Below are positions 35,211 to 52,730 of a DNA stretch of 64,000 bases, in pieces. A program made the translations under genes and the position numbers. Source of the DNA: Oerskovia merdavium (GTDB lineage Bacteria; Actinomycetota; Actinomycetes; Actinomycetales; Cellulomonadaceae); NCBI RefSeq assembly GCF_014836755.1, contig NZ_JACSQF010000001.1:355754-419753 (forward strand), read 5' to 3'. The notes below the pieces were generated by a model that worked only from the letters and a program-made list of their open reading frames with translations, did not search any database and was not told the origin of the DNA. Within the stretch, counting starts at the first letter, position 1. Each line of letters begins with the position of its first letter.

Positions 35211-36425
35211 GTGTCCTCCTCCACTCCTGCGGTGCGTGTCGCCGGCCTCGGCAAGACCTATCGCATCGGTCTCTCGGGCGACCGTCCGACGACCGCCGTC
35301 GAAGCAGCGCTTCGCTGGGCACGCAATCCGGTCCGCCGCGGGTCGCACGAGCTGTTCGACGCGCTCGACGATCTGACGTTCGACATCCCGTGGGGCGAGG
35401 CGACCGGCATCATCGGACGCAACGGCGCCGGGAAGTCGACACTGCTCAAGGTCCTGACCAGGATCACTGCCCCGACACGCGGCCGGATCGAGCTCAACGG
35501 ACGCATCGGGTCGCTCCTCGAGGTCGGGACGGGCTTCCACCCGGAGCTGACCGGCCGCGAGAACATCTACCTCAACGGCGCTCTGCTCGGGATGACGCGT
35601 GGAGAGATCCGGCGACACTTCGACGAGATCGTCGACTTCTCGGGAGTCGCGCAGTTCCTCGACACGCCCGTCAAGCGGTACTCCTCCGGGATGTACGTCC
35701 GCCTCGCCTTCTCCGTCGCGGCACACCTCGAGACGGAGATCCTGGCGATCGACGAGGTCCTGGCCGTGGGAGACGCCGAGTTCCAGGCGAAGTCGCTCGC
35801 GAAGATGCGCGACGTCGCGAAGGACGGACGAACCGTCCTGTTCGTGAGCCACCAGGTGCAGACGGTCACCGCACTGTGCACGTCGGCGATCTATCTCGAC
35901 AAAGGACGCCTGGCGTACGAGGGAGACGTCGCGGGCGCGCTCGACCTGTACCGGCGCAGCTTCGAGAAGTTCGCCCTCGAACAACGGGACGCCGGCACCC
36001 GGCCTGGATCGGGAGAGCTCCGGGCGATCGACGTGGAGATCGGCGAAGACCAGCTCGAGCCCGACGGGGAGAAGACGATCCTCGTCCGGGTCGGTGCCAA
36101 CCCGAAGCTCATCGGGAGCTACTTCGTGTCCTGCCACATCAACGACGTCAACGGCAGCGTCCTCGTGCAGTGCGACTCGCGCGTGGTCGGCGGGTGGTAC
36201 GACGCCGCGACGGAACACACCATCCGGCTGACCGTCCGGACGCCCTGGCTCAAGCCCGGCCGCTACACCGTGGACGTCTTCGTCTGCAAGACCGGTGTCC
36301 TCGACGCCTGGGAGGGCGCAGCCGGCTTCGAGGTGCTCCCGCACAACCCGTACCCCGAGCTGGCCGGCGACGAAGCGCTGACCAAGGGGCTCGTCCTCGC
36401 CGACTTCGACTACAAGGAGGACTGA
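35211..36425 (+). CDS. wzt: Polysaccharide ABC transporter ATP-binding protein with C-terminal glycan-binding domain
   Basis: 404 residues from the GTG at 35211. Walker A GRNGAGKSTLLK, LLEVGTGFHPELTGRENIYLNGALLGM, the short signature YSSGMYVRLAFS and Walker B ILAIDEVLAVGD identify the Wzt/TagH group. After about residue 260 a Wzt_C-like beta-sandwich (to the end) carries FVSCHINDVNGSVLVQCDSR and AATEHTIRLTVRTPWLKPGRYTVDVFV; in O9a-type systems this domain recognises the finished chain end. No ribosome site in front of the start. The permease follows after two bases. Confidence 0.94.
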   Translation: MSSSTPAVRVAGLGKTYRIGLSGDRPTTAVEAALRWARNPVRRGSHELFDALDDLTFDIPWGEATGIIGRNGAGKSTLLKVLTRITAPTRGRIELNGRIGSLLEVGTGFHPELTGRENIYLNGALLGMTRGEIRRHFDEIVDFSGVAQFLDTPVKRYSSGMYVRLAFSVAAHLETEILAIDEVLAVGDAEFQAKSLAKMRDVAKDGRTVLFVSHQVQTVTALCTSAIYLDKGRLAYEGDVAGALDLYRRSFEKFALEQRDAGTRPGSGELRAIDVEIGEDQLEPDGEKTILVRVGANPKLIGSYFVSCHINDVNGSVLVQCDSRVVGGWYDAATEHTIRLTVRTPWLKPGRYTVDVFVCKTGVLDAWEGAAGFEVLPHNPYPELAGDEALTKGLVLADFDYKED

Positions 36426-36427
36426 CC

Positions 36428-37246
36428 GTGGTTCAGACCGTCATCACGCCGCCCGGCCGGTTCGCCGCGCCGAACCTGCGGGAGATGTGGAACGCCCGGG
36501 AGGTCCTCTATCGGTTCGGCATGCGAGACATCGTCCTGCGCTACCGCCAGACCGCCGTCGGCGTCGTGTGGGTCCTGCTGCAGCCGCTCGTCTCGGCGGG
36601 CATCTTCTCGATCGTCTTCGGCCAGGTCGCGGGGCTGTCGAGCGACGGCAAGCCCTACTTCATCTTCAGCTTCGTCGGGATGCTCGCCTGGAACCTGTTC
36701 TCCCAGGTGCTCAACCGTTCGGCCGGCTCCATGGTCGGTAGCCAGGCGCTGATCTCCAAGGTGTACTTCCCGCGGATCCTCGTCCCCCTGTCGGGGATCC
36801 TCTCCGTCTTCGTCGACTTCGTCATCGCGCTCGGGCTCTGCATCGTGCTGCTGTTCGTCTACGGCATCAATCCTGGATGGCCTGTGCTGCTCCTCCCCCT
36901 CTGGGCGGTCCTGATCGCGTTCCTGGGTGCGGGACTAGGGCTGGCGGCATCGGCGATCATGGTCCGATACCGTGACGTGGCCTACGTGCTGCCCTGGCTC
37001 GTCCAGACCCTCATGTTCGCATCGCCCGTCGCGTACTCGGTCAGCGACGTCCCGTCGAACCTCACCACGCTGTTCAACCTCAACCCGCTCGCATGGTTCC
37101 TCGACCTGTTCCGCTGGTCGCTGCTGGGCACCCCCGCACCCGAGCCGTGGAAGTTCGTCGGCGCCGTCGTCGTCTCGCTCCTGGTGCTCACGTGGGGCAT
37201 GTTCGTGTTCCAGAAGTTCGAGCGCGAGTTCGCGGACGTGATCTGA
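36428..37246 (+). CDS. wzm: Polysaccharide ABC exporter permease
   Basis: 272 residues, ABC-2 type with six helices. N-terminal REVLYRFGMRDIVLRYRQTAVGVVWVLLQPL and QALISKVYFPRILVPLSGIL are the family hallmarks; NPLAWFLDLFRWSLLG lies near the C-terminus. GTG start follows AAGGAGG. With Wzt it moves undecaprenyl-linked glycan (or teichoic-type polymer) out of the cytoplasm. Confidence 0.95.
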   Translation: MVQTVITPPGRFAAPNLREMWNAREVLYRFGMRDIVLRYRQTAVGVVWVLLQPLVSAGIFSIVFGQVAGLSSDGKPYFIFSFVGMLAWNLFSQVLNRSAGSMVGSQALISKVYFPRILVPLSGILSVFVDFVIALGLCIVLLFVYGINPGWPVLLLPLWAVLIAFLGAGLGLAASAIMVRYRDVAYVLPWLVQTLMFASPVAYSVSDVPSNLTTLFNLNPLAWFLDLFRWSLLGTPAPEPWKFVGAVVVSLLVLTWGMFVFQKFEREFADVI

Positions 37247-39075: not shown

Positions 39076-40256
39076 GCCGAGGGGGTGCGGTTCTCGGACA
39101 CACGCATCTCCTCACTCCGGGGGACCACTACTCCCCCCGGACCGGCAGTGCCGTGCCCACCGTGGTGCACGGCCTGTGCGGTGCGACACCCACCACCGCA
39201 CCCCGCCCACGCGTCCTCGTCGCCCGTGGCACCTACTCCGAACGCTACGACAGTGCCGAGAGCGTCGAGTACCCCCTGCGCCCCGGCCGACGGACCGACC
39301 GGTACCTCGACCTCGCGCTCGCGCGTACCCTGGCCGTGCGCCCGGCAGCGCGCGCCACCCTGCGACCGGCGCTCACGGCGCAGTCGGACTGGGATCCCAC
39401 GGTGTTCTTCGCCCACAACCTGCCGCAAGCCGTCCCCTTGATCGACGCCGACCGGCACGCGCCCGTCCTCTACGCTCACAACCAGCTGCTGCGCACGTAC
39501 GACCGGCGCGAGGCCCGTCGCACGCTCGGCCCCGCCGCCGCGATCGTCGCGGTGAGCGACTATCTGGCCGAGGCGCTGGCCTCACACCTGCCTCCCGAGC
39601 TTCGTGACCGGGTCGTCGTGGTGCGCAACGGGGTCGACGCGGAGGCGTTCACGCCCCGGACGCGGACCGACGACGGTGTGCTGCGGGTCGTCTTCGTCGG
39701 GCGGACGATCCCCGAGAAGGGTCCCGACGTCCTCGTCGATGCGGTGGTACGGCTCGGGCGTCCCGACGTCCACCTCCTCGTCGTCGGGAGTGCGGGCTTC
39801 GACCCCGAGGCACCTCTCACCGACTTCGAGGCCCAGCTGAGACGTGCCGCCACCCCGGCCGGAGGACGAGTCGTCTTCCGTCGCTTCGTTGACCGCCCGG
39901 GGGTCGTCGACGTCCTGCGTGAGGCAGACGTCGCGGTCGTCCCGTCGCGATGGCCCGACCCCTGCCCGCTCACGGTGCTCGAAGGCATGGCCGCGGGCGC
40001 GGCCGTCGTCGGCTCCGAGATCGGCGGGATCCCCGAGACCGTCCGTGGCGCGGGCGTCCTGGTCGCACCGGGAAGCGTCGACGCCCTGGCGCAGGTGATC
40101 GAGGGACTCGCCGACTCGCCCGAGGAGCTCGCCCGCTGGAGCGATGCCGGTATCGACCGCGCACGCTCCCGGACGTGGTCGGCCGTCCGCCACGAGCTCG
40201 ACGACCGCCTCGCACCGTTCGTCGGACAGCGACCGGCCGACAGGAGAACGAGATGA
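39072..40256 (+). CDS. Glycosyltransferase family 4
   Basis: 394 residues, GTG start overlapping the GT2 stop. Motifs: VLYAHNQLLRTYD, VVVVRNGVDAEAFTP, VVFVGRTIPEKGPDVLVDAV, and the EX7E-like VVPSRWPDPCPLTVLEGMAAGAAVVGSEIGGIPE (Asp replaces the first Glu). The next gene's ATG lies within its last codons. Confidence 0.92.
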   Translation: MSRGGAVLGHTHLLTPGDHYSPRTGSAVPTVVHGLCGATPTTAPRPRVLVARGTYSERYDSAESVEYPLRPGRRTDRYLDLALARTLAVRPAARATLRPALTAQSDWDPTVFFAHNLPQAVPLIDADRHAPVLYAHNQLLRTYDRREARRTLGPAAAIVAVSDYLAEALASHLPPELRDRVVVVRNGVDAEAFTPRTRTDDGVLRVVFVGRTIPEKGPDVLVDAVVRLGRPDVHLLVVGSAGFDPEAPLTDFEAQLRRAATPAGGRVVFRRFVDRPGVVDVLREADVAVVPSRWPDPCPLTVLEGMAAGAAVVGSEIGGIPETVRGAGVLVAPGSVDALAQVIEGLADSPEELARWSDAGIDRARSRTWSAVRHELDDRLAPFVGQRPADRRTR

Positions 40257-41386
40257 ACGGCAGGATCGTCGACGTCTCGGCCCTGTCGTCGGACGACCTC
40301 GAGCGATGGCGCGCTCTCGCGGAAGACGTCGTAGAACCCAACGTCTTCTACGAGCCCGAGTTCGTCGTGCCGACGCACCAGCACTTCGGCGAGGGGCGTG
40401 GCATCCGGCTCGTCGTGGCCCTGTCGCCCGACGGGTCGTGGCAGGCCGCACTGCCGTTCGAGTCGGTCCCAGGAGACACGCGGTGGCCGTTCCCCCATGC
40501 GAGCAACGCGGGTCCGGGCCTCTACGAGTACACCTCGCTCGGCACCCCTCTCCTGCGAGGGGACCCGGCGGAGTCTGCGCGTGCGCTCCTGGACGCGTTG
40601 CTCGCGCACCGATCTGCTCTCGGCCGCGTCTTCACGTTCCACCTCGTCACGACGACCATGCCGGGGGGCCGCGCCCTCCTCGACGAGATCGCACGCAGGC
40701 GTTGCGCCGTGCACGTGTGGGGCACCTCGGAACGCGCCGCCGTGGTCGCGGCGGACCGCCGGCCGACGAGCTGGCAGGATCTCGTCTCGACCAAACGCGC
40801 CCGGGTGCTGCGGCGACGCCTGCGCCTGCTCCGGGACGCCCTGGGAGGTGACGAGCAGCACCCCCTCGCACTGGTCCGCTCGGCGCAAGACATCGACGCC
40901 TACCTCGCCTTCGAGATGGGCTCCTGGAAGGGCGGCGAGGACGGACCGGCTTTCGCACGGCGCGACGGAGGTGCGGAGTGGTGGCGCACCGTCTTCGAGG
41001 GCTTCAGCACCAGGGGCGACGGGCATCTCCTCGAGCTCACCGTCGATGGCGGGCAGACGGCCTACATGGGAACGTTCCTCAGCTCGGGCCGGAGCGTCTT
41101 CTGCATGTACGACGCATACGCCCCGGCCTTCGGCTCGTTCTCGCCCGGCTCGCTCGGGCGCTTGCTGGTCAACGAGCACTTCTCGGTCTCGGGGGCCTAC
41201 GACCTCCTCGACACCTGCATGGACCCGTCCCGCTATCCCGACCAGACACAGCACTTTCCCGACCGCGTCAGCACCGTGTCGCTGACGGTCGCCCTCGGCC
41301 CGTGGCCTGTCCACGGTGCCCTCAGGCTGCGGACCACTGCCGGGCGAGCGGTGCATCGCCTCCGTGACCGGCTGGGCGAGGACTGA
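40253..41386 (+). CDS. CelD/BcsL-type (Acetyltransf_6, FemAB-like) acyltransferase
   Basis: 377 residues from the ATG at 40253, with AGGAGAA in front and a four-base overlap with the glycosyltransferase. Parallel to the 31602-32747 product: PNVFYEPEFVVPTHQHF, then LVSTKRARVLRRRLRLLRD, AFEMGSWKGGEDGPAF, FCMYDAYAPAFGSFSPGSLGRLLVNEH and SRYPDQTQHFP. It is the last plus-strand gene and converges (18 bases) on the acyl carrier protein operon, whose loaded group it could transfer to the glycan. Confidence 0.75.
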   Translation: MNGRIVDVSALSSDDLERWRALAEDVVEPNVFYEPEFVVPTHQHFGEGRGIRLVVALSPDGSWQAALPFESVPGDTRWPFPHASNAGPGLYEYTSLGTPLLRGDPAESARALLDALLAHRSALGRVFTFHLVTTTMPGGRALLDEIARRRCAVHVWGTSERAAVVAADRRPTSWQDLVSTKRARVLRRRLRLLRDALGGDEQHPLALVRSAQDIDAYLAFEMGSWKGGEDGPAFARRDGGAEWWRTVFEGFSTRGDGHLLELTVDGGQTAYMGTFLSSGRSVFCMYDAYAPAFGSFSPGSLGRLLVNEHFSVSGAYDLLDTCMDPSRYPDQTQHFPDRVSTVSLTVALGPWPVHGALRLRTTAGRAVHRLRDRLGED

Positions 41387-41404: not shown

Positions 41405-41671
41405 TCAGGAGGTGAGCGACTCGACCAACCGTGCCAGCGAACCGATGGTCAGGAACGCGTCGCCGGTCACGAAGTCGTCGTCGATCGTGATCTCGAACCG
41501 ATCCTCGAGCGAGGCGATGAGGTCCAGGACCGCGAGCGAGTCCAGCTCGGGCATAGCCCCGAAGAGCTCGGTCTCGGCGTCGAGGCTCGCAGCCCGGTCG
41601 GCGATGCCCAAGGTCGAGACGATCACCTCGACGACTCCGTCCAGGGTCGAACCCGTATCCGGATCTGTCAT
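41405..41671 (-). CDS. Acyl carrier protein
   Basis: 88 residues. Four-helix carrier fold with the phosphopantetheine site LDSLAVLDLI (Ser45), preceded by LFGAMPEL and followed by EDRFEITIDDDFVTGDAF. Not the fatty acid ACP by context: it ends an operon with a ligase and decarboxylase. Its ATG overlaps the decarboxylase stop by four bases, so a fixed ratio of the two is likely. It presumably receives the acyl or aminoacyl group made by the ligase. Confidence 0.92.
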   Translation of the reverse strand: MTDPDTGSTLDGVVEVIVSTLGIADRAASLDAETELFGAMPELDSLAVLDLIASLEDRFEITIDDDFVTGDAFLTIGSLARLVESLTS

Positions 41672-42921
41672 GACGTCTCCTTTGCTGGTGCATCTCCGAC
41701 GAGGACCTCGACGGCCTCGGGGTGGCTGAGGAACGCTGTGGGGCTCGCCGTCAGGCCGTAGGCCCCGGCCTGGAAGACAACCACGAGGTCACCTTCCGTC
41801 GCAAGCGGGAGGTCCAGACGATCACCGAGCAGGTCGAGCGGGGTGCAGGACTTGCCCACGACGTTGGTCGGCTCCGTGGGTGCTTCGCCCATCCTGTTGC
41901 CGATCGCCAGGGGATAGTTCCTCCGGATCACCTGACCGAAGTTGCCTGACGCGGCGAGCTGGTGGTGCAGTCCGCCGTCCACGACCAGGAAGACCTGTCC
42001 GCGAGACTCCTTCCGATCGATCACGCGGGTCACGTAGACCCCCGCCTCGCCCACCAGGTAGCGGCCCAGCTCGATGACCGGCTGTGCCTCGGGCAGGGCC
42101 CGCCCCAGTCGGTCGACGGCAGCGGCGAGCCCCGCGCCGACCGCCTCGAGGTCGAGCGGCGAGTCCTTCTCGAAGTAGGGGATCCCGAAGCCGCCGCCCA
42201 GGTTGACGTAGCGGACGGGGTCGACGCAGTCGGCCGCGAGCTCGACCACGAGATCGACGGTCCGTCGCTGGGCGTCGGCGAGCACCTCGGCGCTGAGGTT
42301 CTGAGACCCGGCGAAGACGTGGAACCCGAGCAGGTCGACGTCGGCCTCCCCGAGCCACCGCAACAGGTCGGGCACCGCCTCTGCGTCGACACCGAACTGC
42401 TGCGCACCACCACCCATGCGCATGCCTGACCCCTTGACCACGAAGTCCGGGTTGACCCGCACAGCGACGCGAGGACGGATCCCCAGGGCGTTCCCGGTCT
42501 CGGCGACGCGCACCGCCTCACCTCGCGACTCGAGCTCGATCGTCGCGCCCGCGGCCACGGCCTGCGCGAGCTCCTGGCGAGACTTGCCCGGTCCCGCAAA
42601 GCTGACGCGTGAAGCGGGGACGGTCGTGTCGAGCGCCGTGCGCAGCTCGCGCCCTGACGCGACGTCGAAGCGGTCCACCACCTGCGCCAAGGCCTGGACG
42701 ACCGGGACGAACGGGTTGGCTTTCACCGCATAGCTGAGCTGTACCGAGGGGGGAAGCGCGCCGCGAACCCGCGAGACACGCTCGAGGAGGCGCCCCCGGT
42801 CGTACGCGAAGTACGGGGTGGTCCCCACGCGCTGCGTCAGCCGCGCAAGGGGAACACCCCCGACGAGGAGCTCTCCGCCCTGAGTCCTGTAGGAGCCGAT
42901 CACCTGTTCGTGGCCGTTCAT
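41668..42921 (-). CDS. PLP-dependent decarboxylase, alanine-racemase fold (exosortase-associated type)
   Basis: 417 residues. N-terminal fold III PLP domain with the Schiff-base lysine in YAVKANP (Lys68), GPGKSRQEL, then VNLGGGFGIPYF, ELGRYLVGEAG (the variant of the usual EPGR phosphate-binding motif seen in the exosortase A-associated decarboxylase group) and a C-terminal beta domain with CTPLDLLGDRL and VVVFQAGAYGLTASPTAFLSH, like diaminopimelate/ornithine decarboxylases. It likely decarboxylates an amino acid or a carrier-bound derivative. Between ligase and ACP, overlapping both by four bases. Confidence 0.88.
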   Translation of the reverse strand: MNGHEQVIGSYRTQGGELLVGGVPLARLTQRVGTTPYFAYDRGRLLERVSRVRGALPPSVQLSYAVKANPFVPVVQALAQVVDRFDVASGRELRTALDTTVPASRVSFAGPGKSRQELAQAVAAGATIELESRGEAVRVAETGNALGIRPRVAVRVNPDFVVKGSGMRMGGGAQQFGVDAEAVPDLLRWLGEADVDLLGFHVFAGSQNLSAEVLADAQRRTVDLVVELAADCVDPVRYVNLGGGFGIPYFEKDSPLDLEAVGAGLAAAVDRLGRALPEAQPVIELGRYLVGEAGVYVTRVIDRKESRGQVFLVVDGGLHHQLAASGNFGQVIRRNYPLAIGNRMGEAPTEPTNVVGKSCTPLDLLGDRLDLPLATEGDLVVVFQAGAYGLTASPTAFLSHPEAVEVLVGDAPAKETS

Positions 42922-44492
42922 GAAGCATGCACCTCTCGCAGCGTCGCGCGGTCGAACTTTCCGTTCGGGCCTCGTGGCACCTCGTCGACCACGACGACCT
43001 CCGACGGCACCATGTAGCGAGGAACTTCCCGGCGCACGGCCGTGAGGAGCCGCTCGACGTCGACGACCGATCCGTCGGGAGCCGTCACCACGAGCAGGAT
43101 CGACTGGCCGAGATCGTCGTCGGGGACACCCAGGGCAACGGCGTCGCCGACCAACCGTGTCGCGTAGACCACCTCCTCGATCTCGGTGGGGCTCACGCGG
43201 TAGCCAGAGGTCTTGATCATCTCGTCCGCGCGTCCCACGAAGTAGAGGAACCCGTCGTCGTCGGTGCGCACCAGGTCGCCCGACCAGACGGCGATCTCGG
43301 GTGCTCCCCACCCGGCGCCGCTGCCCGGGACCGGCCTGAACCTCTCAGCGGTGCGCACGGGGTCGTTCCAGTAGCCCAGCGCGACCAGGGCACCACGATG
43401 GACGAGCTCACCGACCTCTCCCGGGCCGGTGCGGGAGCCGTCCGGCGCTACCACCAGAATCTCTGCGTTGGGGATGGCCCTGCCGATCGAGTCCGGGCGC
43501 CTGTCGACCTCGTCGGGTTCGAGATAGGTCGAACGGAACGCCTCGGTCAACCCGTACATGAGGAACGGCGCTGCCGACGGGAAGGCCGAGCGCAGCCGGT
43601 CCAGGACGGTTCGCGGCAGGCGCCCTCCTGTGTTCGCGAAGTAGCGAAGCGTCCGCCCTGCCTCTGCCCACTCCTGATCGGCGATCTGCCGCCACAGCGG
43701 AGGCACGCAGGTCAGTCCCGTGACCCCGTGCTGTGCACACAGCTTCACGACGTCCCGCGGGAGGAGGTAGTTCGTCAGGACGACGTGAGCCCCCGCTGCC
43801 AGGCCTGTCGTGAGCTGGCTGAGCCCCGCGTCGAAGCTGAAGGGGAGAACGGCCAGGAGGACGTCGTCCGGACCGTTGTGCAGGTAGGCGTTCACGCTGT
43901 CGGCCCCGGCCAACAGGTTGCGATGAGTGAGGGCGACCCCCTTGGGCCCACCCGTACTCCCCGAGGTGTAGAGGATCGCTCCGAGGTCGAGGTCGATCGA
44001 CCGTACCGCCGTCGCGCTCTCGTCGTCCGGACCACAAGGGGCGGTCAAGACGTCCCACGGGACGATGTTCGCCCCCGATCCCTCCTCGTGCGTGGCGGCA
44101 CCCACGAGCACGACATGACGCAGGGACGAGGCCTCCGCACGTGTCGCCGTCAGAGCCCTCCACCGGTCCGCGGAGGTCACGAGGATCGTCGCACCGCTGT
44201 CCCGGAGGATGTGCTCGACCTGGCGAACCTTGAGAACAGGGTTGATCGGTACGAAGGCAAGGCCCGCGGCCGAGGCACCGAGAATCGTCGTGACCAACTC
44301 GTGGCGCTTCTCCAGGAACACGGCCACGCGGGCACCCCGCTCGGCTCCGAGGCGAGCGAACCCGCGCGACACGTCCAGCGCTGCGCGGCGGAGCTCGCCG
44401 TAGGTCGACGTCGACTCGCGGTACGTGATCGCAGGCGCATCCGGGTCCCGCTCCGTCGCGAGCTCGACGAGGTCGAAGAGTGTCGTGAGCAC
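42918..44492 (-). CDS. AMP-forming acyl/aminoacyl ligase
   Basis: 524 residues from the GTG at 44492, chosen for its AAGGGAG ribosome site; an in-frame ATG at 44525 would add 11 residues and overlap the gene upstream. ANL-superfamily motifs: YTSGSTGGPKGVALTHRNL (about 175-193), MYGLTEAF, WSGDLVRTDDDGFLYFVGRADEMIKTSGYRVSPTEIE and the catalytic Lys in PNGKFDR (Lys512). It resembles the exosortase A system-associated ligase group found with a PLP decarboxylase and an ACP. It adenylates a carboxylate and passes it to CoA or the carrier. Overlaps the decarboxylase by four bases. Confidence 0.9.
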   Translation of the reverse strand: MLTTLFDLVELATERDPDAPAITYRESTSTYGELRRAALDVSRGFARLGAERGARVAVFLEKRHELVTTILGASAAGLAFVPINPVLKVRQVEHILRDSGATILVTSADRWRALTATRAEASSLRHVVLVGAATHEEGSGANIVPWDVLTAPCGPDDESATAVRSIDLDLGAILYTSGSTGGPKGVALTHRNLLAGADSVNAYLHNGPDDVLLAVLPFSFDAGLSQLTTGLAAGAHVVLTNYLLPRDVVKLCAQHGVTGLTCVPPLWRQIADQEWAEAGRTLRYFANTGGRLPRTVLDRLRSAFPSAAPFLMYGLTEAFRSTYLEPDEVDRRPDSIGRAIPNAEILVVAPDGSRTGPGEVGELVHRGALVALGYWNDPVRTAERFRPVPGSGAGWGAPEIAVWSGDLVRTDDDGFLYFVGRADEMIKTSGYRVSPTEIEEVVYATRLVGDAVALGVPDDDLGQSILLVVTAPDGSVVDVERLLTAVRREVPRYMVPSEVVVVDEVPRGPNGKFDRATLREVHAS

Positions 44493-44517
44493 GCGGTGCG
44501 CTCCCTTCCTGGGCTGC

Positions 44518-45441
44518 TCAGCCATTCGACTCGGGAGAGCCGACGGTGCGCTCGATGAACATCAGCTCGCTGTAGAGGTAGTCGATCGCTTCGTCGGGGA
44601 ATCCCTCGCCGCGGTACATCCGGTCCAGCCTGATTCCTGCGGGCTTGGAGAACCTCGGGCGGAATCCCGCAACTCGTTCCTCGATCAGGGTGAAGAGTCG
44701 CCCGTAGCGGAACAGGAACCAGCTGAAGACCCGCGGACCCACGGTCCTGAAGACGTCCCGGTCGCTCACGTGCAGAATCGCGACGACCCCGCGCTGCCTC
44801 AGCGCAACCATGACCCGGCCGAGCGCCAGGTCCGGGTAGGCCCGGTACGCGACGTAGCACGGCTTGCCGTCGGCGACGACGACGAGATGCTCGAGCTTGT
44901 CGATCTCTCGATGATCGAGATACTGCTGGAGCACGGCCCCCGTGAGCAGGCTCTCGATCTCCGCGGGCCGGGTGACGACGCGGATCCTGCGTCGAAGCGA
45001 CATCCGCGGCACGTTCGGGACACGCTGCCCGACCTGGCTCAGCGACTCGAACCCGATGCGTTCGTTGATCCGGACCACCTTGGGGCTCGGCGAGACGTCG
45101 GTGAACAGGTCGTGGTCCTGCGCCAGGAGCGCACGGAGCAGCCTGAGGCTCGCGATCCGGTGGTCCTCGTGGACCACCCACGTCGCCAGGTTGCAGACGC
45201 TCAGGTCTCGCCCATCCACCGACCGGGTGGAGTAGTAGGCGAGATAGACGCCGACGACGTGCCCCGCGCTTCGAAGCAGGAACCCGTGGTTCGGCGCAGC
45301 ACTGGTCCAGGACGGAGCGATGGTCCTCTGCCAGTCCTCGGCGGTGAGGCCCTCATGGGTATTCTCCTGGAGGAACCGGGCGACCTCGGTGACGCTCTCC
45401 GCTCCGATCGGTTCGACGTCAGCACGAAACTGGCCACTCAT
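44518..45441 (-). CDS. GNAT-like acyltransferase protein
   Basis: 307 residues. The N-terminal half is GNAT-like (VTEVARFLQENTHEGL at the start, VVGVYLAYYSTRSVDGRDLSVCNLATWVVHEDHRIASLRLLRALL near residues 62-107, and NERIGFESL as the C-terminal strand motif). The second half (about 150-300) repeats an alpha/beta pattern (LEHLVVVADGKPCYVAYRAY, GRVMVALRQRGVVAIL) and may be a second GNAT unit. The start overlaps the Aat homologue's stop by four bases. Acceptor and donor are unknown; context suggests use of the carrier-bound group. Confidence 0.7.
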   Translation of the reverse strand: MSGQFRADVEPIGAESVTEVARFLQENTHEGLTAEDWQRTIAPSWTSAAPNHGFLLRSAGHVVGVYLAYYSTRSVDGRDLSVCNLATWVVHEDHRIASLRLLRALLAQDHDLFTDVSPSPKVVRINERIGFESLSQVGQRVPNVPRMSLRRRIRVVTRPAEIESLLTGAVLQQYLDHREIDKLEHLVVVADGKPCYVAYRAYPDLALGRVMVALRQRGVVAILHVSDRDVFRTVGPRVFSWFLFRYGRLFTLIEERVAGFRPRFSKPAGIRLDRMYRGEGFPDEAIDYLYSELMFIERTVGSPESNG

Positions 45442-46229
45442 CGGGCATCCCGTTCTGCCGACCCCGGCCGTCCACCGCGAACACCCGCGAGGACCAGTGC
45501 TGAGAACTCGTCCGTCCCCATTTCATGTGCGCCGTACCGTGCGAAGTTCGCCGTGAGGCTTCCACAGTCGATGACGTCCCACTCATCTCCCAGGGCGTCG
45601 ACCAGCGTCGCCATCACCACTGCCCCCGCCCCGCTCTCGTGGTGGAACATGCTCACGATCCCGAAGGTCCGTCCGACCTCGATCCCCCAGATGCCGGCTA
45701 CCAGCTCACCATCGCGGTACGCGGCGAGGTTCCGCACGTAGCCAGCATCTTCGACACGACTCCACGCTTCGACGACCGGAGCGACGATCCATGTGCGGGA
45801 ACGGTCGGCGCACCCCGCGATCACGGGCGACAGCGGCGCGTCCATGTCCACGACGTACTCCCCTCGGCGCTGGTAGGTCCGCACCCGCTTCGGCACGTGA
45901 GCCGTGTCGACGTCGATGATCGCTCGCGGTGACACATAGCGGAAGACAGGCTCCGGCTGGGCGTCGCCGCCACGTCCCATGAGGACGAAGCCACGAACGT
46001 ACTGTGCGACGACGTCCGAGGCAGTGACGGGTGCCAGCGGCGTGAGCTCCTCGGTCACATAGGCGACGGCCGCGCGTCGATCCCTCGTCGACTCCACTGC
46101 CCAGGCCGCGAGCCGGGGAGCCCCGAGCAGCTTGGTGAGAACACCGACCACCGCACGGCCGACATGCCCACCCAGTCCTCGTCCGATGTCACGGAGTCGC
46201 TGATGCTGCTCCCAGGACAGCGCCCTCAC
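45438..46229 (-). CDS. Leucyl/phenylalanyl-tRNA-protein transferase (Aat) homologue
   Basis: 263 residues, GTG start overlapping the GT2 stop. Aat signatures are strong: SPRAIIDVDTAHVPKRV (about 100-116), VIAGCADRSRTWIVAP (136-151), DGELVAGIWGIEVGRTFGIVSMF (173-195), VIDC (219-222) and YGAHEMGTDEF (232-242). Aat normally moves Leu/Phe from tRNA to protein N-termini in the N-end rule pathway. The N-terminal 90 residues are unlike Aat. In an operon with a ligase, a PLP enzyme and a carrier protein it may take its aminoacyl group from the carrier, or from a tRNA, and deliver it to a glycan. True Aat function is not excluded. Confidence 0.85.
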   Translation of the reverse strand: MRALSWEQHQRLRDIGRGLGGHVGRAVVGVLTKLLGAPRLAAWAVESTRDRRAAVAYVTEELTPLAPVTASDVVAQYVRGFVLMGRGGDAQPEPVFRYVSPRAIIDVDTAHVPKRVRTYQRRGEYVVDMDAPLSPVIAGCADRSRTWIVAPVVEAWSRVEDAGYVRNLAAYRDGELVAGIWGIEVGRTFGIVSMFHHESGAGAVVMATLVDALGDEWDVIDCGSLTANFARYGAHEMGTDEFSALVLAGVRGGRPGSAERDAR

Positions 46230-47230
46230 AGCTCGGCCTCACGCGTGGTGGACGGATGGAACGCCCCCACGTAGCGCCCCTTGGCGAGTCGGATCACGTT
46301 CCTCTTCACGTCGAAAGGGAAAAAGCGCCAGTTCGGGACGGTCCATCGGCGGACCACGACACCCACCGCACGTGCGCGCTGGGTGACGGAGGCCGGCGCA
46401 GTGGCGGCCTCGACGATCATCCGATGATTGAGGTACCACTGGGGAAAGGCGACCGGTCTGCGCCAACCGGGCGCATACGTCCGGACCTGGTCGAGCACGT
46501 CGCCGCCCTGAACCTTGTTGGTCTGCGCGTCGTGGCGTCGTGAGACGAAGAGCTGCTCGGGGACCTGGATCCACGGTGCACGCATCGCCATCTTGACGCC
46601 CAGGGCCACGTCGCCACCGTAGTAGCCGGGCAGCCCGCCCATCGCCCGGAGGACGTCCGTGCGGATCACCCCGCCGAAGCCGATCACCTGGTACACGTGC
46701 CGTGCCAGGAAGAGGTCGACGCGTGAGGACGGCGAGCCGTGCACGAAGTCCAGCCCCAGGTCGTCCATCTCGCCGACCGGGACGTCGTCGACGTCCACGA
46801 GGAGCACACGGGAGAACGCGATGCTCGCGTCACGGTGCTCGACGAGTGCGTCGCGGCACCTTCGCAGGTGGTCCGGTCGAACCACGTCGTCGGCACCGTT
46901 CCACATGAAGTAGGGGGCTCGGGCCTTCGCGAGCACCCGGTTCCAGTTCCAGGGGACTCCACGGTTCTCGGTGCTGCGCAGGACGACGAAACGTGGGTCG
47001 TCCTGCGCGAACTTCTCGGCGATCGTCAGAGTGCCGTCGGTCGAGCCGTTGTCGGACACGATGACCTCGATGTCAGCGAGGTCCTGCTCCTGCAACGCGA
47101 CGAGAGTCCGCTCCAGGAAGCGTTCGCCGTTGTAGACGGGGACTCCCACGGAGACGGACGGCACAGCGTGCAGCCGGGGGGACTCGGGATCCACGGAGAG
47201 CTCCATCGGTCGCGGGCAGGTGGTCGACAC
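46226..47230 (-). CDS. Glycosyltransferase family 2
   Basis: 334 residues, GTG at 47230 (an ATG at 47206 is an alternative). GT2 core: VSVGVPVYNGERFLERTLVALQEQD, IEVIVSDNGSTDGTLTIAEKF, YFMWNGADDVVRPDHLRRC (metal site) and IGFGGVIRTDVLRAMGGLPGYYGGDVALGVKM. First gene of the ACP/ligase/Aat operon, which ties that module to glycan assembly. Confidence 0.92.
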   Translation of the reverse strand: MSTTCPRPMELSVDPESPRLHAVPSVSVGVPVYNGERFLERTLVALQEQDLADIEVIVSDNGSTDGTLTIAEKFAQDDPRFVVLRSTENRGVPWNWNRVLAKARAPYFMWNGADDVVRPDHLRRCRDALVEHRDASIAFSRVLLVDVDDVPVGEMDDLGLDFVHGSPSSRVDLFLARHVYQVIGFGGVIRTDVLRAMGGLPGYYGGDVALGVKMAMRAPWIQVPEQLFVSRRHDAQTNKVQGGDVLDQVRTYAPGWRRPVAFPQWYLNHRMIVEAATAPASVTQRARAVGVVVRRWTVPNWRFFPFDVKRNVIRLAKGRYVGAFHPSTTREAEL

Positions 47231-49581: not shown

Positions 49582-50220
49582 TCACTCTCCGAGGGTGAGA
49601 ACTGCCTTCCGGATGACGAAGCCCTCCGCGTACTGCTGGCGACACTCGACGCCACGCAGACGCATCAGGCCGAGAAAGGTCTCGTCGTCCCACCAGTCGC
49701 GGTCCACCTGGGACGGGTACGACGTGGTGAGGAGGGAGACCTTGCGCCGTGCGTTCTCCGCACTGACGGGCACGTAGTGGGTGACACGGCCGAGGTCGCC
49801 GTCCCACTTGGGGATCTCGTACTCGAGGACGAGCGCGTCGCGCCACGCGGTAGGGACGAGCTCGGCCACGAGCCGATGGTCCTGGTGCGAGTCGGTCTTG
49901 CTGGGACACAGGACGAGGTCCGGCCGCAGCGACGACGCGAGCTCCTCGATCGCTGCCTTCACCTCGCCCCAGTGCGCGGGCAGGCGGCCGTCCGGCAGGT
50001 CCCAGAACCTGACCTCGGAACCGGGGACGAACGCCTCGGCGGCCGCTGCGGCCTCGAGTCGGCGTTCGGGCGATCCGGTGAGCATCACGAAGGTCGCACG
50101 GACCTCCCGGGCGGCGGCGAGCTCGAGGAGCGTGCCTCCGCACGCGATCTCGATGTCGTCCGGGTGCGCCCCGACGCACAGGACTTCCAGCAGGCCCGCG
50201 GGGAGCGAGAGCTCGATCAA
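49582..50220 (-). CDS. PIG-L (LmbE) family deacetylase
   Basis: 212 residues. Zinc site AHPDDIEIACGG (about 18-29) and HQDHRLVAEL (about 115), with the catalytic Asp in AHPDD. The start is TTG at 50220, overlapping the cytidylyltransferase stop by four bases. Members remove N-acetyl groups from GlcNAc-type sugars; here a deacetylated amino sugar for later acylation is possible. Confidence 0.9.
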   Translation of the reverse strand: MIELSLPAGLLEVLCVGAHPDDIEIACGGTLLELAAAREVRATFVMLTGSPERRLEAAAAAEAFVPGSEVRFWDLPDGRLPAHWGEVKAAIEELASSLRPDLVLCPSKTDSHQDHRLVAELVPTAWRDALVLEYEIPKWDGDLGRVTHYVPVSAENARRKVSLLTTSYPSQVDRDWWDDETFLGLMRLRGVECRQQYAEGFVIRKAVLTLGE

Positions 50221-51071
50221 CGCCGCCTCCCCGACCCGATCGTCGTGACGTCCCCGACCTCGACCACGGGCACGACTCGACCGGGCTCACGGTCCGTCCC
50301 GTCCCACACGGCCCAGGGACTCTCGCCCGTCCGGTAGAGCTCTTCCAGGTGCGACCGTTCCTTGAGCGTGTCCATGGGGGCCCAGAAGCCGTCGTAGCGC
50401 ACGGCACGGAAGCGACCGTCCTTGGCGGCGCGCACGCAGCCGTCCATGACCAGGTCCTCGCCCTCGCTCAGGTAGTCGAAGATCCCCTGACGCAGCACGA
50501 AGAAGCCACCGTTGATCCGCATCTCCATGTCGGCGACCGGCTCGATCCCGGTGAGGTTCCCCGTCGGGTCGATCTTCACGACGTGGAACGAGTCCTGGGG
50601 GTCGACCGCGAGGAGCGTCCCGACGGCGTCGGTCGTGAGGAAGTCGTCGACGATCTGGTCCATGGGGGCGTCCGTCAGGACGTCCCCGTAGTTGGCCAGG
50701 AACACCTCGTCGTCGTCGAGGTACCTGCGCACGCGCCGCAGGCGCTCTCCGATCGCGGTGTCCATCCCGGTGTCCACGAACGTGATCCGCCAGTCGCTGA
50801 TGTCGCTCGACAGCAGCTCGATCTCCTGCCCACCCTTCGAGAGCACGAAGTCGTTGGAGTGAGTCTCCTGGTAGTTGAGGAAGTAGTCCTTGACGGCCCG
50901 GGCGCCGTAGCCGAGACAGAGGATGAACTCGGTGTGCCCGAAGTGCGCGTAGTACCGCATGATGTGCCAGAGCACCGGGCGCGAGCCGATGGGCATCATC
51001 GGCTTGGGCAGGGAGTCGGTCCCGGAACGCATACGCATCCCGAGTCCTCCGCAGAACAGCACGACCTTCAT
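50217..51071 (-). CDS. rfbF: Glucose-1-phosphate cytidylyltransferase (RfbF-like)
   Basis: 284 residues from the ATG at 51071. Nucleotidyltransferase signature VVLFCGGLGMRMRSGTDSLPKPMMPIGSRPVLWHIM, LCLGYGARAVKDYFLNY, the metal Asp in FLANYGDVLTD, and GGFFVLRQGIFDYL. These are close to RfbF, which makes CDP-glucose. The C-terminus is extended by a short basic tail. CDP-glucose 4,6-dehydratase (RfbG) is not seen in the window. Confidence 0.85.
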   Translation of the reverse strand: MKVVLFCGGLGMRMRSGTDSLPKPMMPIGSRPVLWHIMRYYAHFGHTEFILCLGYGARAVKDYFLNYQETHSNDFVLSKGGQEIELLSSDISDWRITFVDTGMDTAIGERLRRVRRYLDDDEVFLANYGDVLTDAPMDQIVDDFLTTDAVGTLLAVDPQDSFHVVKIDPTGNLTGIEPVADMEMRINGGFFVLRQGIFDYLSEGEDLVMDGCVRAAKDGRFRAVRYDGFWAPMDTLKERSHLEELYRTGESPWAVWDGTDREPGRVVPVVEVGDVTTIGSGRRR

Positions 51072-51075
51072 GGCG

Positions 51076-52494
51076 TCACCCCTCCTGTCGGTCCGCGTCG
51101 CCCGCGGACGTGTCCGGCAGGCGCCGCGGTGCGGCGTACTCGCGCATCGCGGGCGCCACGGGACGTCCCCGCAGCAACCCGTCCGTCGTGCCGGCGTCAA
51201 CGGCTCGTGCGTAGACGGCGAGCGCCCCGCGCGCCGCGTCGACCGTCAGGTCGAGGTCCTCGTCGGTGTGGGCCGCGGAGATGACGAGCGACTGTCCCAG
51301 CACGCCCCGCTCGAGCATCTCCTGGATGAAGAGGGTGCGGAACGCCTGCGAGGGGTTGCCCTCGTGGTCCCTGGTACCGAAGACGAGGCACGACGGGCGT
51401 CCCATGATCGTCACGTGGTCGGCGAGGCCCGCCTCCGAGGCAGCCGACACGAGCGCGTCGCGAAGCTTGGCTCCTTGCGACTCCATGAGCCCGACGACGT
51501 CACGCTCGGCATAGGCGTCCGCAACGGCGAGATAGGCGGCGAGACCTGTCGTCTCGGCGCCGTGGGTCGTGGACAGGAGGAAGGGACGGGACCCGTCGGT
51601 GTTGAGGCCACCCTGATCCATGAGGTCTCGACGGCCGGCGAGGGCCGACACCGAGAAGCCGTTGCCGAGCGCCTTGCCCCAGGTCGACAGGTCCGGACGG
51701 ACGCCGTAGACGGACTGGGCGCCCCCGGCTGCCCATCGCATCCCCGTGATCATCTCGTCGAACACGAGCACGAACCCGTGGAGGTCGGCGAGCTCGCGCA
51801 GCCCCTCGAGGAATCCTGGTGCAGGTTCCGCGGTGGCGGTCGCCTGCTCGAGGATCAGTGCGGCGATCTGCCCGGGATGGGCGTCGAGCAGCGCACGGAC
51901 CGAGTCGAGGTCGTTGTACCGGAAGGACACCGTGAGGTCGCGCTGGGCCTGCGGGATACCGGCCGTCATCTGGGTGGTGCCGATGAACCAGTCGTCGGTC
52001 GAGAAGAACGGCTGGGTGCCGCAGACCGCGACGAGGTCGCGCCCGGTCGCGGACCGTGCGAGCTTGATGGCCGCGGTCGTGACGTCGGAGCCGTTCTTCG
52101 CGAACTTGACCATGTCGGCGCCCGGCACCTGCTCGAGGAAGCGTTCGGCGGCCCGCAGCTCCCACACCGTGGGCCGCGAGAAGTTCACGCCGTCGCGCGC
52201 TGCTGCGGAGACCGCCTCGACGACGGGAGCGAAGCCGTACCCCAGCGTCACCGCACGCAGGCCCATGCCGTACTCGACGAACCAGTTCCCGTCGAGGTCC
52301 TCGACCCGGGCCCCCACGCCCCGGGCGATGACGGGTGCCATGTTCTCGGGGTACTGGTCAGACCCCCGCGCGTAGGTGTGCGCCCCGCCGGGAACGAGCT
52401 CGTGGAGCCTTCGCTGGGCCTCTGCGGACCGGACGAACGATCGACGAGATGCGGCACCGGACGGGGCGAGCGCGGCGTGGGCGGGGTAGGACAT
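51076..52494 (-). CDS. Class III aminotransferase / glutamate-1-semialdehyde aminomutase-like
   Basis: 472 residues. PLP fold I: GARVEDLDGNWFVEYGMGLRAVTLGY, FAKNGSDVTTAAIKLARSATGRD, FDEMITGMRWAAGGAQ, and the Schiff-base Lys in STWGKALGNGFSVSALAG (about 265). Nearest recognised relatives are HemL-like enzymes used in sugar or amino acid modification, not haem synthesis, given the context. It is the first gene of the minus-strand run, 4 bases ahead of rfbF. Confidence 0.88.
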   Translation of the reverse strand: MSYPAHAALAPSGAASRRSFVRSAEAQRRLHELVPGGAHTYARGSDQYPENMAPVIARGVGARVEDLDGNWFVEYGMGLRAVTLGYGFAPVVEAVSAAARDGVNFSRPTVWELRAAERFLEQVPGADMVKFAKNGSDVTTAAIKLARSATGRDLVAVCGTQPFFSTDDWFIGTTQMTAGIPQAQRDLTVSFRYNDLDSVRALLDAHPGQIAALILEQATATAEPAPGFLEGLRELADLHGFVLVFDEMITGMRWAAGGAQSVYGVRPDLSTWGKALGNGFSVSALAGRRDLMDQGGLNTDGSRPFLLSTTHGAETTGLAAYLAVADAYAERDVVGLMESQGAKLRDALVSAASEAGLADHVTIMGRPSCLVFGTRDHEGNPSQAFRTLFIQEMLERGVLGQSLVISAAHTDEDLDLTVDAARGALAVYARAVDAGTTDGLLRGRPVAPAMREYAAPRRLPDTSAGDADRQEG

Positions 52495-52730
52495 CTTTGG
52501 CTCTTCCTGAGGTTGCGGTCGTGCGGGCGTCTTCGGTGGAGGACCAGCTGACGGCGGTTGCGGCTCCGCTCTCCGGTGGAGGGCCGTCCTGCGTGATGCG
52601 CCACGGCGTCGACGGTCCAAGTGTCCCCGCCCTGCGGCAGGCAGGGAAGCCGACCGGGCCGTTTTCATCCGCGCCCGATTCATCCGCTCCCCCTGTGCCG
52701 CACGGGACGCAGCAGCCCTACGCTGAGCGG

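Follow-up and report, generated by a model that had tools for sequence, protein, structure and literature searches.

Six minus-strand genes of Oerskovia merdavium, encoding a GT2 glycosyltransferase, an Aat homologue, a GNAT-like protein, an AMP-forming ligase, a PLP-dependent decarboxylase and an acyl carrier protein (ACP), lie in what the NCBIfam and Pfam scores of their neighbours mark as a surface-glycan cluster, within the 64,000-nucleotide stretch of DNA that was analysed here (the window; Table 1). Four-base overlaps join GT2 to the Aat homologue, the latter to the GNAT-like gene, the ligase to the decarboxylase and the decarboxylase to the ACP gene. A 25-base gap separates the GNAT-like gene from the GTG start of the ligase; use of the ATG at 44525 would give an 8-base overlap instead. 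The stretch AGGAAGGGAG stands directly upstream of the GTG, which we prefer as the start, the ATG being a possible alternative. The original prediction had described this layout with its single gap, and the description was borne out for the GTG start; its family assignments of the ligase, the decarboxylase, the ACP, the Aat homologue and GT2 all scored above the model cut-offs.

Table 1. Genes of the operon and selected neighbours, in positions of the window.
Feature	Position	Strand	Evidence
ABC exporter for glycan, Wzt/TagH kind (ATPase and permease)	35232-37246	+	ATPase 35232-36425
P0007, FemAB-like GNAT protein, convergent neighbour	40253-41386	+	PF13480 36.9 bits
P0002, acyl carrier protein	41405-41671	-	PF00550 29.8 bits (cut-off 20.8); serine in ELDSL
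P0001, PLP-dependent decarboxylase, BtrK-like	41668-42921	-	TIGR03099 570 bits (cut-off 478)
P0003, AMP-forming ligase	42918-44492 (GTG) or 42918-44525 (ATG)	-	TIGR03098 709 bits (cut-off 592)
P0004, predicted GNAT-fold acyltransferase, unnamed family	44518-45441	-	weak GNAT matches
P0005, Aat-family homologue	45438-46229	-	PF03588 95.6 bits (cut-off 22.7)
P0006, GT2 glycosyltransferase	46226-47230	-	PF00535 102 bits (cut-off 23.3)
PIG-L type de-N-acetylase	49582-50220	-	PF02585 75.7 bits

Among the neighbours, P0007 is possibly a further transferase, and the PIG-L protein might generate a free sugar amine. The exporter ATPase reached 184 and 175 bits with the NCBIfam teichoic-acid and galactan exporter models, both below their cut-offs, and the permease was assigned from its position and reading only.

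The scores of the ligase and the decarboxylase make them members of the exosortase A-associated pair, whose models TIGR03098 and TIGR03099 are 'hypothetical equivalog' models only. That no exosortase is visible nearby had been pointed out before, and this held genome-wide: PF09721 gave no match at E<=10 in the genome, whose completeness is 99.93%, and an exosortase system was rejected. An ACP, a FemAB protein and a deacetylase also accompany the accessory pair in an XrtA locus (L154), which, unlike the window, has no match to the P0004 profile.

The substrate-binding core of the ligase found its best solved match in VinN (122 bits, against 101 for the next enzyme), whereas over the full length multidomain synthetases ranked above VinN by summed domains. 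In the accessible text of the VinN reports, D230 binds the amino group of the substrate, and S299 and R331 bind the alpha-carboxylate (PMC7756342, PMC11253843). The equivalent residues are Asp, Thr/Ser and Arg in 30 of 30 sequences, the window ligase included, and the short loop carrying the R331 equivalent aligns without a gap. These sequences do not include a ligase of a different type with an 87-bit match (L112), another of a different type (L142) and one with a broken frame (L156); at L108-L111 and L113 no ligase match reached E<=1e-20. VinN-type Asp or Arg occupied the corresponding columns in none of seven other AMP ligases of the same genome, a control from which two weak matches out of ten (L151, L152), lacking a profile hit, were omitted. 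The Asp for the amino group and the Arg of the shortened loop are of the VinN type, but the window ligase lacks the bulky residue of VinN position 231: F231, important for the VinN substrate, is replaced by Ala in 27 of the 30 sequences, including that of the window, and by Tyr in three, and the substrate may therefore differ from that of VinN. In phage records, one 31% match to the ligase was seen, in an unannotated 4.5 kb record.

The decarboxylase is nearest to BtrK among solved structures (7ru7/2j66, 230 bits), ahead of free-substrate decarboxylases, the best diaminopimelate decarboxylase reaching 146 bits. BtrK is an L-glutamyl-ACP decarboxylase acting on carrier-bound glutamate. The CTPxD motif of the BtrK/VinO type is present in all 33 decarboxylase rows, while a distant paralogue of the same genome has CESGD. 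The ACP motif ELDS[LFM] was found in the window protein and in the 18 relatives looked at.

The GNAT-like gene, P0004, had been passed over by the original prediction, and it proved to be the constant partner of the trio. P0004 and an above-cut-off decarboxylase occur in an identical set of 15 out of 200 genomes of the same family. Besides the window, P0004 adjoins the trio in the 14 other family genomes, in L057 and in five alphaproteobacterial plasmid loci (three, plus two more distant). The 14 family loci are mutually related, so that few independent lineages stand behind this co-occurrence. Distant P0004 relatives are also found without the trio; four distant loci (L139-L142) among the six plasmid hits fetched had no match to the window decarboxylase.

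P0004 is predicted, from weak similarities, to be a GNAT-fold acyltransferase. No Pfam or NCBIfam model exceeded its cut-off, and the GNAT matches of its members were weak (Acetyltransf_1 in 4 of 21, best E 7e-4; Acetyltransf_9 in 5 of 21). Comparison by hhalign with a GNAT family gave 79% probability, and comparison with FemAB-like and Aat alignments gave no match. A single-sequence AlphaFold model had a pLDDT of 39.6, and PDB profile searches with P0004 and with the GNAT family f34 returned nothing significant. The P0004 alignment omitted L098, whose start is miscalled.

The conserved core is consequently P0004 with the AMP ligase, the PLP decarboxylase and the ACP, and not the four genes grouped originally, which had the Aat homologue in place of P0004. 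Alphaproteobacterial plasmids, Sinorhizobium pSymB among them, carry this cassette as well, in most cases with a sugar deacetylase close by. A NodB-type deacetylase matched in 17 of 19 cassette loci against none of 14 other TIGR03099 loci, a contrast in which distant deacetylases of the comparison loci could be missed, since the queries were drawn from cassette loci. The same type is annotated in L155 and L156, and the window has the PIG-L protein instead. The function of the cassette was not found described in open-access literature; in the accessible text of PMC1569441, the words ligase, decarboxylase and acyl carrier are all absent.

We propose, at roughly even chances and from sequence comparison, that the four genes form a cassette for carrier-bound amino-acid chemistry whose product would decorate the surface glycan. 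The ligase would adenylate the side-chain carboxylate of an acidic amino acid, most likely L-Asp and possibly L-Glu or 3-methyl-Asp, and load it onto the ACP. The decarboxylase would then remove the alpha-carboxylate from the carrier-bound substrate, yielding beta-alanyl-ACP (or GABA- or 3-aminoisobutyryl-ACP). P0004, the candidate transferase, might pass the aminoacyl unit to its acceptor, most probably a sugar amine that a sugar deacetylase has set free, and the glycan would thereby carry a short basic amide; transfer to glycan we infer from the gene neighbourhood. The earlier idea that an amino-acid-derived acid is activated, decarboxylated and put on a glycan thus gains carrier loading and on-carrier decarboxylation, to which the VinN and BtrK relatives and the conserved amino- and carboxylate-binding residues point, as well as a glycan-cluster setting, and loses the Aat homologue as a participant.

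The residue evidence would give the exosortase A accessory pair a definite, testable reaction, from Asp or Glu to beta-alanyl- or GABA-ACP. If true, the charge of surface sugars could be modified by way of a carrier protein, in addition to D-alanylation and the tRNA-dependent Fem or MprF enzymes, and this would explain exopolysaccharide-cluster genes such as those on pSymB of Sinorhizobium meliloti.

Analogous chemistry has been reconstituted in two systems, as far as the accessible text of the reports goes: AfcQ/AfcP/AfcK of AFC-BC11 converts L-Asp to beta-Ala on a carrier (PMC12186527), and VinN/VinO/VinL of vicenistatin does likewise with 3-methyl-Asp (PMC11284099). Both share with the cassette a VinN-type ligase, a PLP decarboxylase, a stand-alone carrier and the amino- and carboxylate-binding ligase residues; the cassette differs in its glycan clusters, its P0004-type partner and Ala instead of Phe at position 231. 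The butirosin enzymes BtrK/BtrI resemble it in carrier-bound decarboxylation, but their product goes to an aminoglycoside, and the butirosin ligase BtrJ belongs to another class. As in D-alanylation (DltABCD), the amino acid destined for a surface polymer would be loaded on its carrier by a ligase; the cassette, however, is built from other families and adds a decarboxylation step. The DltC model scored 15.2 bits in the window, against a cut-off of 68, and DltA was absent among the best 25 of 107 families for the ligase.

An alternative that we regard as unlikely is that the product of the cassette is a small amide natural product or a lipid head group, of the kind seen with vicenistatin, bolagladin or AFC-BC11, and that the place of the cassette in glycan clusters reflects either chance or export alone. 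Indeed, the VinN/BtrK-type trios in the accessible literature make antibiotics or lipopeptides. Moreover, the genes around L153 read, from their translations, as acyl-CoA dehydrogenase-like and KAS III-like, L142 has a halogenase gene next to its distant relative of P0004, and the L057 cassette lies among non-glycan genes, with no deacetylase match in 20 kb. Against this, glycosyltransferase, polymer-export and deacetylase genes surround the annotated plasmid loci and, as judged by reading, the 14 loci of the family, and no PKS or NRPS gene was recognised by eye beside the window cassette.

It is rather improbable that the trio supplies an ordinary acyl group through an acyl-CoA or acyl-ACP ligase, with the decarboxylase separately making a polyamine or free amine. 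The NCBIfam name of TIGR03098 is acyl-CoA ligase, and the long-chain fatty-acid ligase model PRK06187 scored 298 bits, against 266 for amino-acid adenylation domains; this reading is weakened by the invariant Asp and Arg, by the closeness of the ligase core to VinN and of the decarboxylase to a carrier-dependent enzyme, and by the overlap of the genes with an ACP gene.

A single pathway in which the Aat homologue takes up the carrier-bound unit, as first predicted, is decidedly doubtful: four-base overlaps with both its neighbours place it in the same operon, but the link had been made to depend on these genes being neighbours in other genomes, and the co-occurrence search that we ran found no Aat match in all 18 other cassette loci scanned (L155 and L156 were outside the scan) and the homologue in 1 of 200 family genomes. 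A conserved unit including Aat was accordingly discarded, and the homologue is a rare extra aminoacyltransferase-like gene outside the conserved cassette.

P0005 belongs to PF03588 and falls short of TIGR00667 (80.2 bits, cut-off 143.55). We take the catalytic Glu, Asp and Gln of Aat to be residues 156, 186 and 188 of the E. coli enzyme. Val and Gly stand in P0005 at the Glu and Gln kept in all 44 canonical rows, while the Asp and Trp of those rows are retained; a changed donor or acceptor is therefore plausible. The underlying table of 46 rows was drawn from 52 loci, including the 30 that scored best in the order, and the window protein and the L126 protein each appear in it twice. P0005 also differs from Aat by an N-terminus about 40 residues longer than the E. 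coli chain in the alignment and by its glycan-cluster location. As it is the sole PF03588 protein in the 200 family genomes, its own included, and has lost these residues, a housekeeping N-degron role was rejected. No relative came up in viral contigs or in two scans of genome contigs, a method that depends on near-exact matches over 8-9 residues and would overlook distant relatives; in plasmids, tblastn gave 24 records, 26-29% identical, none covering >80% of the length of P0005. One recognised relative (L126) also lacks the canonical Glu and Gln and lies in a different glycan cluster that lacks the trio, with no match to the window ligase or decarboxylase in its 20 kb and no TIGR03099 match at E<=1e-120 in its genome, which speaks further against Aat as the transferase of the pathway.

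The accessible text of one study puts Aat in a group with Fem and MprF/VlmA enzymes that have been drawn into other pathways (PMC2922099). As a long shot, glycans (for f34 perhaps peptidoglycan) might be beta-aminoacylated from a carrier protein, not from tRNA, by GNAT-fold transferases; the former Aat would here have been recruited likewise, either accepting the aminoacyl group from the ACP or extending the beta-alanyl amine by a second residue. Family f34 has MurJ and FemAB neighbours.

The constant unit of the locus is a cassette of four genes encoding P0004 (a predicted GNAT-like protein), the ligase (TIGR03098), the decarboxylase (TIGR03099) and the ACP, and the Aat homologue (PF03588) lies outside it. 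Our genome samples were even draws that take in part of the genomes available. TIGR03099 was found above its cut-off in 15 of 200 family genomes (14 more had a lower-scoring protein only), in one of seven genomes drawn from the genus and in 2 of 396 from the phylum. The P0004 profile (21 sequences; E<=1e-8; 12 candidates scored per genome) matched the same 15 family genomes and none besides; since it was partly built from the proteins of these genomes and recovers them by construction, its informative part is the 185 match-free genomes together with adjacency. The 20 kb fetched around each of 14 other family cassettes and around L057, a relative from another family, showed the order P0004, ligase, decarboxylase, ACP in 15 of 15 loci. 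The cassette of L057 is situated outside glycan clusters, so that such a location is possible. Homologues of all four genes are present in plasmid loci of Sinorhizobium meliloti pSymB (L136), Aureimonas (L137, with the ACP on the opposite side) and Rhizobium (L138), and in Shinella L155 and Rhizobium L156 the gene next to the ligase/decarboxylase/ACP trio encodes a P0004 homologue more remote in sequence (117 and 106 bits). All seven annotated P0004-bearing plasmid stretches fetched label P0004 a hypothetical protein. Four loci with distant P0004 (L139-L142), of six plasmid P0004 hits fetched, had no match to the window decarboxylase nearby, which counts against a strict link between P0004 and the trio. 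A tree of 30 ligases places the rhizobial copies beside those of the family and the window copy slightly outside the two groups, on a long branch and weakly supported; this fits horizontal movement and is no proof of it.

Coordinates of the window and of features in it and in comparison loci
Feature	Position	Strand	Remark
Window	G000:C11:355754-419753		source genome 4.49 Mb, 99.93% complete; G+C 71%
P0004	44518..45441	-	predicted GNAT-like protein
Aat homologue	45438..46229	-	PF03588
Ligase start	44492	-	if GTG is used
Glycan cluster	26-64 kb		much of this range, by reading of the genes
Three consecutive genes	49582-52551		PIG-L deacetylase, nucleotidyltransferase, aminomutase-type enzyme
Aat homologue of L126	L126:9539-10390	-	in glycan cluster
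Ligase of L156	L156:7341-8978		frame broken over three frames
P0004 relative and neighbours	L142:7499-13152		Rhizobium plasmid
P0004 relative and neighbour	L139:7965-10330		glycan locus without trio
P0004 relative and neighbour	L140:7833-10210		glycan locus without trio

The original prediction had made the Aat homologue a member of the pathway. This was not supported: no match to it was found in L057, in the 14 other family cassette loci (L094-L107) or in L136-L138; 14 loci with other TIGR03099 relatives likewise had none. It is the sole PF03588 match of its genome and among 200 family genomes. Scans of genome contigs, which reach close relatives only, revealed no relative of it. Canonical Aat is absent from the source genome, and the 199 other family genomes searched have no PF03588 match. 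Of 297 genomes from the order, 92 others contain a match, at 163-216 bits as for canonical proteins, except for one split match. In the class (296 genomes) the score is 473 bits for the window copy and 96 for the runner-up, and 109 of 396 phylum genomes match at E<=1e-5. The best phylum match after the window itself is at locus L126 (30% identity over residues 26-248), by reading a glycan cluster without the ligase/decarboxylase trio, where its neighbours are two FemAB-like proteins, two sugar aminotransferases, an epimerase and a hexapeptide acetyltransferase. Both proteins retain two canonical Aat residues, Asp and Trp, while the Glu and Gln invariant in 44 of 44 canonical rows are replaced by Val or Met and by Gly, respectively; weaker phylum matches were examined only in part for these residues. 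The residues compared (Glu, Asp, Gln) are presumably catalytic. We conclude that neither protein is an ordinary Leu/Phe-transferase. PMC2922099 groups Aat with the Fem and MprF/VlmA GNAT ligases serving other pathways, a precedent for such recruitment.

From the established chemistry of the ligase and decarboxylase families, the trio would be expected to yield beta-alanyl-ACP if the amino acid is Asp and GABA-ACP if it is Glu. Compared with BtrK, which the PDB names L-glutamyl-[BtrI acyl-carrier protein] decarboxylase, the decarboxylase reaches 230 bits, and diaminopimelate decarboxylases give at most 146. It shares the CTPxD motif of BtrK with all rows (33 of 33), and a distant paralogue in the same genome, probably LysA, has CESGD instead. 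PMC11284099 (VinN/VinO/VinL) and PMC12186527 (AfcQ/AfcP/AfcK) give worked examples, with thioester formation followed by decarboxylation on the carrier. In six loci of the window's family (L108-L113) the BtrK-like decarboxylase is more distant, and five of them have an ACP match alongside it; L109 by reading has an AMP-ligase-like gene, a second carrier protein and a KAS III-like gene, surroundings that read as a separate natural-product-like cluster.

Among solved structures, VinN matches the ligase core of 217 residues best, at 122 bits versus 101 for a gramicidin synthetase. With the full-length ligase, summed domains put multidomain synthetases above VinN, which is the first chain to match in a single stretch. 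PMC11253843 describes VinN residues D230, F231, S299, K330 and R331 and a shortened loop, and the five positions fit the PDB chain numbering with a single constant offset of 16. Across 30 ligases, window included, the equivalents of D230 and R331 are always D and R and that of K330 is always F; position 299 holds T in 27 sequences and S in three, and position 231 holds A in 27 and Y in three. In the sequences inspected, Ala231 pairs with Thr299 (27) and Tyr231 with Ser299 (3), a pattern that could distinguish two classes of substrate. At the D230/R331 columns, neither Asp nor Arg occurs in any of seven other AMP ligases from the genome; both are present in the exosortase-linked ligase at L154. 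The ligase open frame of L156 is broken and its decarboxylase intact, the break being a pseudogene or a sequencing error.

By co-occurrence, P0004 is the best candidate for the transferase. Its GNAT-type fold is predicted with uncertainty: matches to Acetyltransf_1 (best E 7e-4) come from 4 of 21 family members and to Acetyltransf_9 from five, and profile-profile comparison with a GNAT family from the eight loci of family f34 (L058-L065, with ACP-ligase-decarboxylase sets) gave 79% probability over 77 columns, three of four members of the f34 alignment passing the Acetyltransf_1 cut-off. The P0004 profile itself matched these loci weakly at six places, none clear. The f34 GNAT protein adjoins the ACP in seven of eight loci and is one gene apart in L063; MurJ lies inside the fetched stretch of every locus, and five also have a FemAB-like protein (one match weak), surroundings that hint at a connection with peptidoglycan or lipid-linked precursors. 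The GNAT-fold candidate of the exosortase locus L154 is an annotated FemAB protein about 7 kb off (PF13480, 86 bits). The trio is thus paired with a GNAT-type protein in each of these three settings; the pairing was not seen in the six loci L108-L113. The distant P0004 relative of L142 lies by an ACP-like gene, an SDR, an adenylate-forming enzyme and a halogenase annotated cmlS, and directly after those of L139 and L140 comes an unclassified protein, roughly 495 residues long.

A NodB-type polysaccharide deacetylase is present in 17 of 19 cassette loci, 14 of the 17 being from one family; the exceptions are L057 and the window, which has a PIG-L deacetylase. None of the 14 loci holding other TIGR03099 relatives had one at E<=1e-6 with four queries drawn from cassette loci (three checked as PF01522), a search that distant deacetylases elsewhere could escape. 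A deacetylase is annotated also in L155 and L156, and in L154, which is no cassette locus. Deacetylation of an amino sugar would expose the amine required by an aminoacyl transferase, and this argument from neighbourhood makes a glycan amine a candidate acceptor. The proposed analogy to D-alanylation stands in the sense of working like it and fails as membership.

The six-gene description of the operon agrees with the gene calls, the 25-base gap before the ligase being present with the GTG start. The surrounding cluster contains, by reading of the called genes, several glycosyltransferases and, by model matches, an ABC exporter ATPase resembling those for teichoic acid and galactan, a pyruvyl-transferase-like protein, a PIG-L deacetylase, a nucleotidyltransferase, an aminotransferase, a C-methyltransferase and an epimerase. 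The nucleotidyltransferase beside the PIG-L gene is glucose-1-phosphate cytidylyltransferase-like (score under cut-off) and the third enzyme of that run is of the glutamate-1-semialdehyde aminomutase type (NF004856, 667 bits, cut-off 486); these three genes may be the source of an unusual nucleotide-activated amine.
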